A stretch of 64,000 nt of DNA from Mycoplasmataceae bacterium (GTDB taxonomy: Bacteria > Bacillota_I > Bacilli_A > Mycoplasmatales > Mycoplasmoidaceae): NCBI GenBank assembly GCA_031290395.1, contig JAITNN010000018.1, positions 1 to 64,000 on the forward strand, given 5' to 3'. Numbering within the stretch: position 1 is the first letter of the stretch; each line of letters begins with the position of its first letter. The notes beneath the pieces are model-generated. The model worked only from the letters and a program-made list of their open reading frames with translations. It was not told the DNA's origin and made no database searches. The position numbers and the translations under genes are program-made. Of the stretch, positions 30,446 through 40,343 are shown piece after piece.

Positions 30446-30467
30446 AGAGAGAGAGAGAGAGAGAGAG
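30446..30467 (+). repeat. (AG)11 simple-sequence repeat
   Basis: Eleven perfect AG units, 119 bases before the ATG of the BspA-like lipoprotein gene. A small hairpin (CGGC-CTA-GCCG) and a terminator follow it. It lies in non-coding DNA on both strands as far as can be seen. The same kind of tract interrupts the mod gene at 36135. Confidence 0.9.
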
Positions 30468-30585: not shown

Positions 30586-32277
30586 ATGAACGCAAGTCAA
30601 GAAACAAAAAATAGAATTCATTACCAAGGTAGTAATAAAAAGAAAACACAATGATGAAAGATCATGTTGAGTTTTGTTATTGGTGGAGGCATTGCATGTG
30701 CTATTGCTTTGCCTATCACTTTAACACAAAGTTGTCATAATAAGGCAAAAAACATGACAGTATTTTATAGTTCCGACCATTATTACTTTACCCAATATGA
30801 TAACAATGTTTTTATTAAAGCACCAGTGATTGAAATACCAAACCATCCAGAATTAAATTTAAGTGATACAAAATTTACAAATGTAAACAATACATTAAAT
30901 AATATACATCTAACTTTAAATCCAACAAATGGAAGTATATACAGTTCTTACCAAAATTTATCTCCATTTGATGATACTCCAATTGAAATCCAAGTTGAAG
31001 GAAACGCAAACGGAGAACATTATGAAACTCAAGTTAATATTAAAATTACATGCGATGATTTAAATACTATATTTGATAGCGATAATTGCTTATCGCCTGA
31101 CAAACCAGAATTTGATGTAATTTTTAGCAGATATGAAGAAGGTACCTTTATTGATAACTATGATTTTTCTACCCTTGCCACAACTCACTATACTTCCATT
31201 GATTTTGGTGCTAATTATTTTGAAGGTTCATTGTTTTCAAACGACCCACCTAAAGAGTTGCAATTTGAAGGTCAAATTAAAGGTATAAAATTTGGAGATG
31301 CAACTTCTGGGCAAACAGGAAAGAGAGTCATTCATGATAGATCTTTTCAGGGTTGTGATGGTATCAATTTAATATGCTTACCGCCTTCACTTACCGCAGT
31401 CTCCATTGGAAATTATGCTTTTTGGGGTTGTTCACATCTATATGGTTTTATTGGAGGCGACTTAAACACTAAGCATTCCGGAGCAACAATTTCATCAATA
31501 TTAGCTGGTACGATTGATTACCCTGCAATTGGAGATAATGCATTTTATGGGTGCAGCTCATTAACTAGTGAATTAATAAGTAACTTAAATTTCAACCCAA
31601 ATGATTTACAGTACATAGAAAACGCTTCCACAAGTTATCTGGAAGGTGCTGGATTAATTAGTGCAAACGGTAAAGATTGAATAAATGGTGGTGGGTTAAT
31701 CGCAGGTGACTTAGGTTCAACCTTAACAAGCATAGATTTCTCAAACATTCCCACAGATAATTTTTCTTTGTTTACAGGTTGTTCGTCATTGACTGCAGTT
31801 AATTTAGCGGCAAATACATCTTTATCATCGTCTGCTGGTAGGACTGGAGATTTTGAGGCGTGCTACAGTTTATTTAATGTTAAGTTACCTTCTACCTATT
31901 CTAACGATATAGCACCTAGCACTTTTCAAGATTGCTATTCATTACAATCATTAAATTCAAACGACGATGATTTGATTGATTTATCTAACTTTAATAACAT
32001 AGGTGGTTATTCTTTCATGGATTGTTCAAACATTTGACACATTAAATTTTCTTCATCTTTAACAACTATAAGCCCTACAGATACTTTTAGCGATGCTGCA
32101 GACCTCAAAATTATCATCATAGATGCAACATCTGCTCCATCTGAAGATGCAGAGATAAATATTTCGTATTTGAACATTTTACACGGGGTTATTATCTACA
32201 CTGGCGATTTAGGAAATGCAATGCTATGAAAAAATGCATTCGGTTTAAATAGTTGAACGTTGGTAGGGGCTGTTTAA
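30586..32277 (+). CDS. BspA-like leucine-rich-repeat surface lipoprotein
   Basis: A 563-residue protein read through several TGA Trp codons. After a short charged N-terminus comes a hydrophobic signal segment ending L-T-Q-S-C, a likely lipid-anchor site. The first 200 residues are Asn/Thr-rich with beta-type segments. From about residue 235 onward BspA/TpLRR repeats appear: F-Q-G-C-D, F-W-G-C-S, F-Y-G-C-S-S-L, F-T-G-C-S-S-L, F-E-A-C-Y-S-L, F-Q-D-C-Y-S-L, F-M-D-C-S. BspA-type proteins bind host proteins or cells, and large families occur in Trichomonas vaginalis and its mycoplasma symbiont. The (AG)11 tract and terminator upstream suggest switchable expression. Confidence 0.82.
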
Positions 32278-32321
32278 TAAATAGAAAAGTAGGCATCTCA
32301 AGACATTTTCTTCAACATAAT

Positions 32322-34803: not shown

Positions 34804-36114
34804 ATGAAAATCATCAAAGTTGATCAACAAAAAGAACACATTAAATATATTGTGTCAGCCGATAAGGCTGAATGAAAACAATTCCAAGAAAATTCTTACA
34901 AAAATCTTGTTAAGAATTTAAAGTTACCAGGTTTTAGAGCTGGACATGTTCCACCTGAAGTAGCCAAAGGCCAAATTAATCAAGGTGAAATTATGAATGG
35001 TGCTTTAAATAAAACCATTGATAGTAACTATAAATTGTTAGTCCAAGATAAAGATTTTAAGAGTGAAGATCTTATTGAAGATGCTGTATCTATTGACTTA
35101 CAAAAAGTAGATAAAGACACATTAGAAATTATTTATATTTTTGAAAAATACCCAGATGTCACTTTGCCGGATTACAAGAAAATTAAAATTGACTATGTAG
35201 AACCAAAAACTGAAGATAGTGAAGTAGAACACGAAATTAACCATTTCACAAAGCGTGATAACATGTTGATTCCTAAAGATGATGGTGTCGTTTCTAAAGG
35301 TGATATGGTTAATTTTGATTTTAAAGGTTTTATGGATGATAAACCGTTCCCTGGTGGTGAAGCCCAAGATTATGAATTAGAAATTGGTTCTAACAGTTTT
35401 ATTCCTGGTTTTGAAGATCAAATGGTGGGATTAAAAAAAGGTGACAAAAAAACTATTGAAATTACTTTCCCGAAGGACTACCATGCAAAGAACCTCGCTA
35501 ATAAGAAAACCAAATTTGAATTAAAAATTAACGATGTTAAAACAATTCAAAAGCCAAAGTTAGACGAAGAATATCTTGCTCGTTTTAAAATTCCCAACAT
35601 TAAAACCGAACAAGAATTTAGAACGTACTTGCATAAACAAATTCACGAACAAAAAGAATATAAATCTCGTCAGAGTGCAATTGGTAAAATTTCACAATAT
35701 ATCATTGCACATACCAAACTATCTTATATGCCAAAATCTTTAGTTGATTCTGAAATCAAGAGATTAAATGAAGATACCGCCAAACGAGCGACACAAGCCA
35801 ATGTATCTATTGATGATTTCATTGTCAAAAACCTTGGATATAAAAGCAAAACAGATTTTGATAAAGTTATAGAAGACAGTGCCCAAAATAATTTAAAACT
35901 AGTAGTAGCTTTAGAGAAAATTATTGAAGAACTAAAACTAGATGTTTCGCAAAGCGAACTAGATGAACACTTAAGCAAAATGGCTAAAGTTTATAATACG
36001 GATGTTGAATCTATAAAAACTCGTTTCAACAATAATTTTGATGGTATCAGAACATTTATTCTTCAAGAAAAAGTATTTGATAAATTAATTGATTTAAATA
36101 AGGATTCAAAATAA
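34804..36114 (+). CDS. tig: Trigger factor
   Basis: A 436-residue ribosome-bound chaperone. The ribosome-binding signature is G-F-R-A-G-H-V-P (about residue 46; G-F-R-x-G-x-x-P in the family). The peptidyl-prolyl isomerase (FKBP-like) domain lies around 150-240 (G-D-M-V-N-F-D-F-K-G-F), followed by the helical C-terminal chaperone arms. The stop codon overlaps the ATG of the type III methyltransferase gene by one base. Confidence 0.94.
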
Positions 36115-37681
36115 TGAATAATCCTATCGCAGTCGAGAGAGAGAGAGAGAGAGAGCTCTTGAATCATATAAACAAAATAAGATTAATGAGTTAGAGCAAC
36201 GTCTTAATGATGGTATTATCATTAAGAATAATTATTTATCATTGAAACAATTGATTGAATTAGGCAATACCAAAGAACAAATAGATTTAGTTTTTCAATG
36301 AGGAAGTCAAAATCCACAAACTGGTTATTATTTTGATAGACAAGTAGAAAACTTTAGAGACTCTGCGATGTATTTGAAAAAAGTAGAGTCTATTAATGGC
36401 GGTGGAGATAATAAACTCATCATTGGTGATAACTATGATGCTTTGAACAATCTTTTGATTACACATAAAGAAAAAATTGATGTAATTTATATTGATCCAC
36501 CATACGGTATGAATAATGAGGGTGAGTTTGCTAAAACAAATTATGAAAACAAAATTGAACGTGATTCTTTATTGTCAATGCTCGAACCAAGGTTAGAAAT
36601 TGCAAAGCAATTGTTAAATGATGAAGGTGTAATTTTTTGTTCAATTGACGATAAAAATCAAGCATATGTTAAATTATTATTTGATAGAGTTTTTCAAAAC
36701 TCTAATTTTATTTCGAGTTTAATATGACACGCAAGACGCGGAGGGGGGAATGACACAAAGCTCGTTGCAGTAGATCACGAGTATATCATTGCATATGCAA
36801 AAAATAAAAATTCATGCTTATTAATAGGCAGAAAGAAAACAGATGATGATTTTGTTTTGCAAGATGAACATTTAAAAACACGAGGTAAGTATAATTTACA
36901 ACAATTTGATCGGGCCTCTCTTACATATACTTTAACGCTTGATTATCCAATAGAATGTCCAGATGGATCAAAACTTTTCCCTGGACATGTGAATAAATTA
37001 AAATGAGATCAGCGTAGAAAGAACACTGCTAAACGCAACGATTGGCGTTGGATGATGAGCGAAGAAACTTACAAAAAAGCCAAGGAAAATGATTTCATAG
37101 TTTTTGAAAAAAAGAACGGAGTATGAAGAGTAAAAGTTAAGACATATCAATTTATAGATTACAAATTAAAAAAGAAGGATAGACTATTAAAATTACGAAG
37201 CATCATAACCTCATCCAACACACAAGACGGGAGAAAAGATTTAGAAAATTTAGATATCAAATCTTTTGACTATCCTAAACCAGTTAAGTTAATAAGTGAT
37301 TTGATACAAAATTATGCGAAATCAAATGCAACAGTTTTAGACTTTTTTGCAGGTTCAGGTACGACTGCACAATCGGTTTTGGAATTAAATAAAGATGGTG
37401 GCAAAAGAAAAGTATTTTTATGTACGAACAATGATAAAGATGATAGAAATCCTAACGGCATTGCAAAAGACACCACTATTAAACGTTTGAAAAAAATTAA
37501 TATTCCTATTAATGTTTACGAAATCAATCAAGCAGAAATATATTCTGGTGATAACTCTTTATTAAATTTAATAGATGAGGTTGACTATGATTTACCTAAA
37601 TTTACATCTAGAATTAAAAAAATAGAATGAGTAACCAATAATTTCAAAGTTACTACTAGAGGTTTAATTAAAAAACCATAA
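36114..37681 (+). CDS. mod: Type III restriction-modification methyltransferase (Mod), phase OFF
   Basis: Beta-class DNA methyltransferase. From the body frame: D-P-P-Y-G-M (catalytic motif IV) lies upstream, then a target-recognition region, then the SAM motif D-F-F-A-G-S-G-T-T, the order expected for type III Mod. The ATG at 36114 overlaps the tig stop and reads M-N-N-P-I-A-V-E-R-E-R..., but with the present (GA)10-G tract (36135-36155) it runs into TAG about 60 bases on. Loss of one GA unit (or gain of two) joins the ATG to the body, giving about 521 residues. In the body frame no ATG, GTG or TTG lies between the stop at 36119 and the repeat. Low-level internal starts (TTG 36242, ATG 36368) would give truncated proteins. 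In the current state functional Mod should be absent or scarce. Confidence 0.88.
36135..36155 (+). repeat. (GA)10-G tract in the mod coding sequence
   Basis: Ten GA units plus one G directly after codon 7 of mod. Read as Glu-Arg repeats in all in-frame states. Slipped-strand changes of one unit shift the frame, so it is an ON/OFF switch. Confidence 0.92.
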
Positions 37682-39648
37682 TGATAGAAAGAATTAAATT
37701 TATTCAAGAAAATAAAGTTGATGAGTTATTAGCACTAACTAATGTTGAAGGCGAAAAAGATTATACTCTAAAAGCCCCAACCGGTAGTGGTAAAACATAT
37801 ATGGAAGGGTATTTGATTTCTAAATTACTTAATCAATATCCAAACGCAATAGTGATTTATCAATCTCTTTCCAAAGCCGGCCTAGCGAATCAAGCTTATG
37901 ATAAAATAATTAACCAATATCAATTTAATAATATTAATGCTTATTTAATTAACGCCGATTATTCTAATCAAGAGAGACCAACTGTTCCTCTAAATTACAA
38001 TGCTTATTTTCTTCCAAAAGATTTGTTCAAAAGTGGAGGCAATATCGAAATTGCTTTTAAAAATTTCTTAACATATGAAAATAATGACAAAACTAAATTT
38101 CTAATTCTAGATGAAGGACACATCGCCTCCAATAATATAGGTAAATATGCTGATGAATTCGATAGAATATTCGTGTTCACCGCAACTCCGCTCAAGGAAC
38201 AAATGCTACCAGGAAGATTTGTTGAACTTGATGAGGACGTTTGTATACAAGAAAATATTATTAAATCAAAAAAAGAAATTCACCAAAACGAATTAGAACT
38301 TTCTTTGAACAAACGACTAATTACAACGTTAAAAGATTGAAAAATAATTAAAGAACAATATAGAAGTAGCGGTATTAACCCGTGTTTGATTATTCAAATT
38401 TCTAACAAATTTAAAGGTAATAAAGAAAAAGAAGAGATCATCAATGTGCTCAATTCAAGTGGCATATTATGATACTATGATGATGCCAAAGGTTTTGAAA
38501 GTTCTGATCGAATAAACGACTTAAAGGGACAAAAATCGAAAGAAATTGCAAGAAAATATGTTGTCAGTGCCACATCCAATGTAGAAGTAGCAATTTTCAA
38601 GCTTGCATTTACAGAGGGTTTTGATATTCCACGGGCATGCTATCTATTACAAATAAGAAATACAGAAAGTGAAACATTAGATGAACAAGTCGTTGGTAGG
38701 ATTAGAAGAAATCCTTCATTAAAAGATTTTGATAACTGAACAAATAAACAAAAAGAGGATTTAATGATTGCTTATGTTAATGGTGTGGTTGAGCAAGAAA
38801 CTAAAAAAGTCAAATTTGTTCAAAGAACACATTCTTTGACATTCAAGACTACCACACTCATTAATAAAGTTCCTAGCATCTTGAATATTGCTAATCTTGA
38901 TCTAAATGCATATGATGGCATACCAATGAATATTTTCGAGTTAAATGACAAATGAAACATGTTGGATGGAAGAATTAAAAGTACCATTATTAAAAATAAC
39001 GGTGGTGATATAACAGAAAATGAATGAATCAAATATTGTTTAAATGTAGGGATACTAAACAGGAAAACATTCACTTTAAATTATCAAAATAATCTACGTG
39101 TTAGCGAAATTGAAGCAGAAATACAACAAAAAACATTCTATCGTAATGACAATAATTACATTATTTATATTAATAAATGAATATGAGAACACATCAATGA
39201 TAGAAGCAATGCTTACGATGTCGAAAGTTATGCAGAAGAAATCGTCGGAAATGAATTAGCAGATCCTTCTTTTGGGCTTACTAAATGAGGTAAAAATTGA
39301 TATAGTGGTTCAAAAGTAACATTTGAGTACTTTTTAAATCAAAAGGGGATGATGTTATTATCCCAACAACATCCAGATTTTTTCATTGTTAAAAACAACA
39401 AGAAATATTTAATAGAAGTTAAAAGCTATGTTAAATCTATAGCCCATAGTTTTGATAGTGATGACTACAAATCAAAGGTAGAATCCATCAAAAATCTTTA
39501 TCAAGAAGCTAGTAAAGTAACACAGCAAATTTTTGTAGTTATGCTACAAGATGAAGCACCGGCACATTTATGAACATCTTTTGTCTACGAAGACGGAAAA
39601 GTCAAAGAATTCTACGATGCAAATAAATTGAACTTCCTTATTTCCTAA
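37681..39648 (+). CDS. res: Type III restriction-modification endonuclease subunit (Res)
   Basis: A 655-residue helicase-nuclease. Walker A is A-P-T-G-S-G-K-T (about residues 32-39), the DEAD-type box is I-L-D-E-G-H, motif III is F-T-A-T-P, and motif VI is Q-V-V-G-R-I-R-R-N-P. Near the C-terminus a PD-(D/E)xK nuclease site reads P-D-F-F-I-V, then Y-L-I-E-V-K-S-Y. The frame is intact and independent of the mod repeat. Its ATG overlaps the mod stop (TAATG). In type III systems Res needs Mod for target recognition, so loss of Mod silences cutting as well. Confidence 0.9.
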
Positions 39649-40343
39649 ATATCTGAACTATCTTTTTTATAGTAGTTAAAAATGATTTCTTCTAAGTTGA
39701 TTTGCTCTGGCAAATCAACTGAATAATTAGCCTCCAGTTTAATCGTATCATCATAATTAGCAATAGCTACTGAATATATTCCCACATGGTTATATTCACG
39801 TATTCCATCAATGTGATCTTCTAGGCCGATACATTCATCAGTCCGTAGACCGAGATAATGCAAAGCAAACAGCACATTAGATACATTGGTTTTTTCTTTG
39901 GCAGATAGGCTTGAGAGTTGGTGTACAGAGTAATCACTAATGTAATCAAACTTGTTGTTTAACTCCATACACTTCATTTCTAGTTTGGCATTTGCAGATG
40001 TACTAACAGCAATTAGTTTTAAATCACGTTCTTTGGCATGATCAATAAGTTGTTTAACTCCGTTAATGATGTCATTTTTAGTAAGACCGTGTTTAATTAA
40101 ATGTATGAACAAATCATTTTTCTCATCGACAATTTCTCCGAGGACTTTATCTGTAAGTTTTAATTTATATCGCTTAGCGATCTCTTTAGCAATCCATAGT
40201 CGTGGTTTTCCAGCATAGTGCTTTCATTCCGTGTGAAGCAATGCAACACCGTGAAAACTATAAATACTCTTCCAAGCAAGAAAGTGAAAATGTGATAAAT
40301 TTGTAATTACCCCATCAATATCAAAAACAATTGCCTTTAACAT
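39645..40343 (-). CDS. HAD hydrolase, beta-phosphoglucomutase-like
   Basis: A 232-residue protein. The N-terminal catalytic motif F-D-I-D-G-V-I-T-N (two Asp) followed by H-F-x-A-W fits the beta-phosphoglucomutase subgroup. Motif II Ser lies in I-A-V-S-T-S, and the acidic motif IV in G-L-E-D-H-I-D-G-I. It would interconvert beta-glucose 1- and 6-phosphate after maltose/trehalose phosphorolysis, or be a related phosphatase. Convergent with res, overlapping by 4 bases. Confidence 0.7.

Follow-up and report, generated by a model that had tools for sequence, protein, structure and literature searches.

Repeat-switched type III restriction-modification is not new for wall-less bacteria, with M. mycoides, M. 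agalactiae and Ca. M. girerdii all preceding the locus described here (PMC3498834, PMC9465063, PMC5476646). For the MmyCI system of M. mycoides, clones with 12 AG units lack the enzyme and clones with 10 AG units have it (PMC3498834). The mod genes of M. agalactiae carry tracts of 4-17 GA, and tract length tracks methylation (PMC9465063). In Ca. M. girerdii, repeat-length variants occur among the reads and both type III mods are OFF in the consensus (PMC5476646). Here, we describe a mod-res pair in the window, meaning the whole stretch of 64,000 nt that was analyzed, which belongs to the genome of an uncultured mollicute (1.01 Mb, 21 contigs, 92% complete). Read with code 4 (TGA = Trp), the gene order is tig, mod, res and then a convergent HAD gene (Table 1). 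Our main reading, held with a probability of roughly 0.86, is that a phase-variable type III mod-res operon lies behind tig, that slippage in a GA tract switches restriction on and off, and that the system is OFF as assembled in this one assembly.

Table 1. Coordinates of the tig-mod-res-HAD region in the window, followed by tract-bearing loci elsewhere in the same genome (given by locus, genome and contig label).
Feature	Position	Strand	Basis or remark
tig (trigger factor), gene upstream of mod	34804..36114	+	Pfam Trigger_N, FKBP_C, Trigger_C
AAGGA, Shine-Dalgarno-like, 9 nt before mod ATG	36100..36104	+	sequence
Short ORF from mod ATG, 26 aa then TAG 36192 (OFF state)	36114..36194	+	frame reading
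(GA)10-G tract, 21 nt, proposed slippage switch	36135..36155	+	sequence, dinucleotide shuffles
Mod body, type III N6-adenine methyltransferase, frame 36116, 507 open codons to TAA 37679-37681	36156..37681	+	Pfam, PADLOC, PDB, alignment
Res, type III restriction subunit, 655 aa (TGA = Trp); APTGSGKT, DEGH, QVVGRIRRNP, PDFF...IEVKS	37681..39648	+	Pfam, PADLOC, alignment, fold
HAD-family hydrolase, convergent; right border of inserted mod-res cassette	39645..40343	-	Pfam Hydrolase/HAD_2; empty junction in relatives
Second type III mod	L056 3599-5303 = G000:C3:44598-46302, tract C3:44893		(CA)9 before DPPY, out of frame with upstream start (OFF)
Small methyltransferase, NPPY interrupted by (GA)11.5, OFF	L013 5339-6400, tract G000:C16:75195	-	
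Eco57I-like N6 methyltransferase, (CA)7 about ten codons after ATG, in frame (ON)	L081 3205-4425, tract G000:C3:12378	-	
PAPS-reductase-like, HATPase, Z1-domain and unknown gene in a row	L012 5777-11135, tract G000:C16:22788		GA10.5 before first gene

The tig stop codon (TAA, 36112-36114) shares a base with the mod start codon (ATG, 36114-36116) in a TAATG overlap, and the res ATG overlaps the mod stop in the same manner. The sequence-only reading had described an ATG overlapping the tig stop and leading through (GA)10-G into a TAG, a description that proved correct to the base (36114, 36135-36155 and 36192). The tract starts 21 nt after the mod start, and the peptide read from the mod ATG before TAG 36192 is MNNPIAVERERERELLNHINKIRLMS. 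A set of 100 dinucleotide shuffles yielded no (GA)7 from the window, so a chance origin of the mod tract is not expected. The same reading had placed the Mod body in a different frame with no start of its own before the repeat. Indeed, TAA 36119 closes the Mod body frame (36116) on its upstream side, and no start codon follows in that frame before the repeat. By frame count, 6, 9, 12 and 15 GA units give an open mod of 519, 521, 523 and 525 aa, respectively, while 5, 7, 8, 10, 11, 13, 14 and 16 units lead to a stop within 30 aa. Therefore, mod is OFF as assembled, and either the loss of one unit that had been proposed to join the frames (9 units, 521 aa) or the gain of two (12 units, 523 aa) turns it ON. 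As in a phase-variable gene, the repeat unit is not a multiple of three, the tract lies between the start codon and the catalytic body, and stops occur in the other frames.

The OFF state might instead reflect an error in the assembled repeat count, with mod ON in most cells. The genome is a draft of 21 contigs, and repeats may collapse in assembly (PMC9465063). However, ordinary sequencing reads should be longer than a tract of 21 nt, and the genome has several further tract genes that are OFF. Even a wrong count would leave a switchable tract in place. We rejected assembly error on these grounds and consider it very improbable.

Judged by motifs and families, mod-res is a complete type III restriction-modification operon. 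Mod has DPPY at 36494-36505 and DFFAGSG at 37340-37360 (within DFFAGSGTT), and the alignment places its variable target-recognition region at about 36710-37312. This order, with DPPY before FxGxG and the recognition region between them, is that of a beta-class N6 methyltransferase, as expected for a type III Mod. Mod matched Pfam N6_N4_Mtase (3.5e-34), the PADLOC type III methyltransferase models (best MTase_III, 6.6e-59) and, among PDB sequences, three chains only: Mbo45V (1.3e-38), Mod 6k0w and EcoP15I Mod (2.9e-28). Res matched Pfam ResIII (2.9e-10) and PADLOC REase_III (1.5e-19). NCBIfam named neither Mod nor Res above its cut-offs, and a phmmer search of Res against the PDB returned no match.

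The res gene is intact, as had been claimed, with a single open frame spanning 37681-39648. SF2 helicase motifs and a PD-(D/E)xK nuclease are united in this one protein, encoded directly downstream of mod, as expected for a type III Res, and its length of 655 aa is below that of classical type III Res. In an alignment of eight Res proteins, one of them the second type III Res of this genome, there is little variation in the Walker A motif, the DExH-box DE, GRIRRN or PD...ExK (invariant positions G35, K38, T39, D144, E145, G339, R340, R343, P565, D566, E579 and K581). The predicted Res model (pLDDT 74.8, pTM 0.42) has an SF2 helicase fold in which the helicase lobes were matched. With this model of pTM 0.42, the top VIA match was the type ISP restriction-modification translocase LlaGI (Z 15.5, 3.2 A over 176 residues), and EcoP15I Res was absent among the matches listed in the fold searches. 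The Mod-Res enzyme could be inactive.

Relatives of Mod are present in 31 of the 95 genomes of the family. A scan of genome contigs found no second strain of the window's species; it matched only the record of G036 (Mycoplasmataceae bacterium isolate Cf509_bin32, of the same genus as the window's organism), one other mollicute and distant mods. An Rfam scan of the window gave no match. The nearest same-genus orthologs with an N-terminus carry the GA tract at the same place, with 10.5 units in G046, 10.5 in G045 and 11.5 in G064, and the leaders before it are unrelated (MKLERG, MKHMAH and ...NLTAL, respectively). Repeat position is conserved in relatives and repeat length is variable, as in a phase-variable gene. 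The mods of G046 and G045 are OFF, and that of G064 is unscorable since its contig begins there. Elsewhere in the family, the tract is found either close to the start or immediately ahead of the DPPY motif, and some tracts consist of TA instead of AG. Among family mods with at least 7 repeat units, 16 of the 20 that could be scored are OFF and 4 are ON. The OFF share is near the two-thirds expected by chance, the excess not being significant (P = 0.15), and is thus consistent with a random walk among frames.

These counts bear on whether mod is instead a decaying gene, with a single frameshift acquired en route to loss and a repeat that is incidental. The window's mod is OFF, as are most mods of the family, and the G036 mod is internally frameshifted without a tract. 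However, 507 codons of the window's mod are free of any other lesion and Res is intact. Three orthologs of the same genus keep the tract in an identical position, the protein is under constraint, and the OFF fraction is that given by random switching. Decay was therefore rejected, and we regard it as very unlikely.

Constraint on the protein also indicates where translation enters mod. Over the 28 codons from the tract to the first in-frame TTG, the protein is 50-64% conserved with pS of 0.73-0.95 against pN of 0.23-0.37, and the N-terminal core has pN of 0.18 against pS of 0.65-0.67, in a test that is coarse because dS is near saturation and that says nothing about recent decay. Because the protein encoded by these 28 codons is conserved and synonymous change far exceeds nonsynonymous change, translation normally enters mod through the tract. 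This speaks against a working Mod being made at any tract length, whether by ribosomal slippage or from an internal start. Two candidate starts, TTG 36242 and ATG 36368, are in frame and ahead of the DPPY motif, but neither is preceded by a good Shine-Dalgarno sequence, and relatives conserve the protein encoded upstream of TTG 36242. Moreover, AG12 clones of M. mycoides were without activity (PMC3498834). We rejected this explanation too, and its chances appear slight in the extreme.

The tig-HAD junction is empty in six relatives (G054, G042, G038, G037, G044 and G045), where the convergent HAD gene comes straight after tig, its ancestral neighbour. The G054 tig is 75% identical to the window's and ends in DLNK-stop, as opposed to DLNKDSK-stop in the window, where AAGGATTCAAAATAATG begins the cassette. 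In G046, mod sits elsewhere, downstream of ffh. Given the empty tig-HAD junction in relatives and the different location in G046, the mod-res operon was acquired at tig. There, mod appears to rely on the 3' end of tig for its ribosome-binding site.

Different parts of the operon have different closest relatives. The recognition region of Mod is 71% identical to that of G036 and 27-33% identical to those of G046 and G064, the N-terminal core is 75-76% identical to all three alike, and Res is 33% identical to that of G036 and 51-53% identical to those of G046 and G064. This pattern fits an exchange of recognition domains between mod alleles, as in modA (PMC3311624); an exchangeable recognition domain is typical of phasevarions, without strictly defining them. 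The G036 mod, closest in its recognition region, has short stretches of GAGAGA close to its start and no GA tract, and its frameshift falls just before the DPPY motif (L016/L069).

The sequences establish the anatomy, the frames, the protein families, the conserved tract position in relatives, the constraint on the protein and the insertion site, whereas a changing tract length in this organism, an active enzyme and the use of the switch are our inference. Under the proposed mechanism, slipped-strand mispairing at replication would lengthen or shorten, by whole GA units, the tract that closely follows the mod start codon. With 9 units (or 6, 12 or 15), full-length Mod would be made and, in complex with Res, would methylate one strand of a short motif and cut unmodified DNA. 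With other unit counts, translation would end within 30 codons and the system would be off. The whole system would switch as a unit because Res needs Mod. The likeliest benefit would be bet-hedging between restriction on and off, trading phage defence against DNA uptake, cost or self-damage, and any methylation effect on gene expression is possible and would be secondary. As regards the benefit, the conserved Res speaks more for restriction bet-hedging than for gene regulation.

The sequence-only reading had suggested a phasevarion, whose main role would be to alter the expression of many genes through methylation by Mod. The same kind of mod genes control regulons in Haemophilus and Neisseria (PMC2667262), and GA length alters the M. 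agalactiae methylome (PMC9465063). However, the intact and conserved Res argues for retained restriction, and Algire et al. remark that an active Res implies additional functions. Given the intact Res, switchable restriction is an equally good or better reading than a phasevarion, and gene regulation as the main role is rather unlikely.

Putative repeat switching in this genome is concentrated on DNA methyltransferases and surface lipoproteins, as surveyed by a pattern search for GA, CA and TA only. Dinucleotide tracts occur at five of the six DNA methyltransferase genes found, a ratio that refers to the genes found, partly via the repeats themselves and partly via genome-wide Pfam searches that covered N6_N4_Mtase, N6_Mtase and DNA_methylase. 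These Pfam searches revealed no further DNA methyltransferases except a C5 enzyme, the only one of the six without a tract. The tract is inside the 5' part of the gene in four of the six: the window's mod (mod1, GA10.5, OFF), the second mod (mod2, CA9, OFF), a small NPPY methyltransferase (GA11.5, OFF) and an Eco57I-like enzyme (CA7, ON). A D12-class methyltransferase has (TA)8 just upstream. This (TA)8, at L085 2940-2955 (G000:C16:57439), lies between fusA and the start of the D12 N6 methyltransferase and is a possible promoter-type switch.

The second type III mod is followed by a Res of 786 aa, and an ATG nine codons before its tract is in the body frame. Two uncharacterised genes follow the Eco57I-like methyltransferase. 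Downstream of the small NPPY methyltransferase gene, and overlapping it, is a gene with a nuclease-like EAK motif. The two may form a repeat-switched type II-like pair, and through translational coupling the nuclease might be kept off along with the methyltransferase. At C16:22788, the GA10.5 tract is out of frame with upstream ATGs, and AbiEi/AbiEii-like genes are adjacent on the other strand; the row of PAPS-reductase-like, HATPase and Z1-domain genes is a possible repeat-switched defence cluster.

Among surface proteins, (CT)11.5 at L009 1290-1312 (G000:C1:1290) is inside a lipoprotein signal peptide. The body frame of that gene has no ATG before the tract, and an upstream ATG is in another frame (OFF as assembled). 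In the window, an intergenic (AG)11 at 30446-30467 (C6:30446) precedes by some 120-190 nt a gene for a BspA-type LRR lipoprotein, which starts near 30586 or 30652 and ends near 32280, and a short inverted repeat rich in GC comes after the tract. Loci C18:39132, C5:61715 and C7:10697 are laid out alike, and three of the four lipoprotein genes have BspA-type repeats. The arrangement suggests that surface lipoproteins vary in phase at the promoter or leader level. The sequence-only reading had overlooked this second long tract in the window, as well as the insertion at tig and the tracts at further methyltransferase genes. Tracts of (AT)10-11 at L082 2369-2390 and L084 2240-2259 end at the ATG of a BspA-type LRR gene and of a HAD hydrolase gene, respectively, and may affect ribosome or promoter spacing. 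Whether the species runs a combinatorial switchboard of methylome and defence is a tentative idea, to which we give somewhat less than even odds. If so, cells of one clone would differ in many combinations of methylation and defence.

These results extend repeat-switched type III restriction-modification to an uncultured mollicute genus and provide an example of such a cassette being acquired behind a housekeeping gene. The ModA genes of Haemophilus and Neisseria have repeat units that differ from the window's GA. Like the window's mod, ModA is repeat-switched and has an exchangeable recognition domain; regulon control was demonstrated in Haemophilus and Neisseria, whereas for the window's mod it is a possibility (PMC3311624, PMC2667262). 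MmyCI of M. mycoides subsp. capri resembles the window in having an AG-repeat mod directly before res and a sequenced clone that is frame-OFF (PMC3498834). Its shorter-repeat form is ON, with methylation demonstrated there (PMC3498834). The two differ in repeat position (320 nt into mod for MmyCI, 21 nt after the start in the window) and in the mod/res overlap (14 nt as opposed to 1 nt), and the MmyCI target is known to be TGAG (PMC3498834).

The M. agalactiae loci MAG1530 and MAGa1570-1580 share with the window a GA tract near the 5' end, a variable target-recognition region between conserved ends and a downstream res, and they are OFF in most strains (PMC9465063). Unlike in the window, switching and methylation (RCAC, GAAG) were demonstrated there, and some strains have tandem mod copies (PMC9465063). 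At the level of the genome, Ca. Mycoplasma girerdii is likewise an uncultured mollicute with dinucleotide repeats in BspA-like surface proteins and restriction-modification genes (PMC5476646). It differs in that type I hsdS loci are repeat-controlled too, one mod has a G tract, and length variants were shown (PMC5476646). The tract pattern here belongs to the class seen in Ca. M. girerdii; it strongly exemplifies a strategy already known and is not a new one. The window's system is real, and it is an ordinary case of a kind already known, set in a genome unusually rich in repeats.
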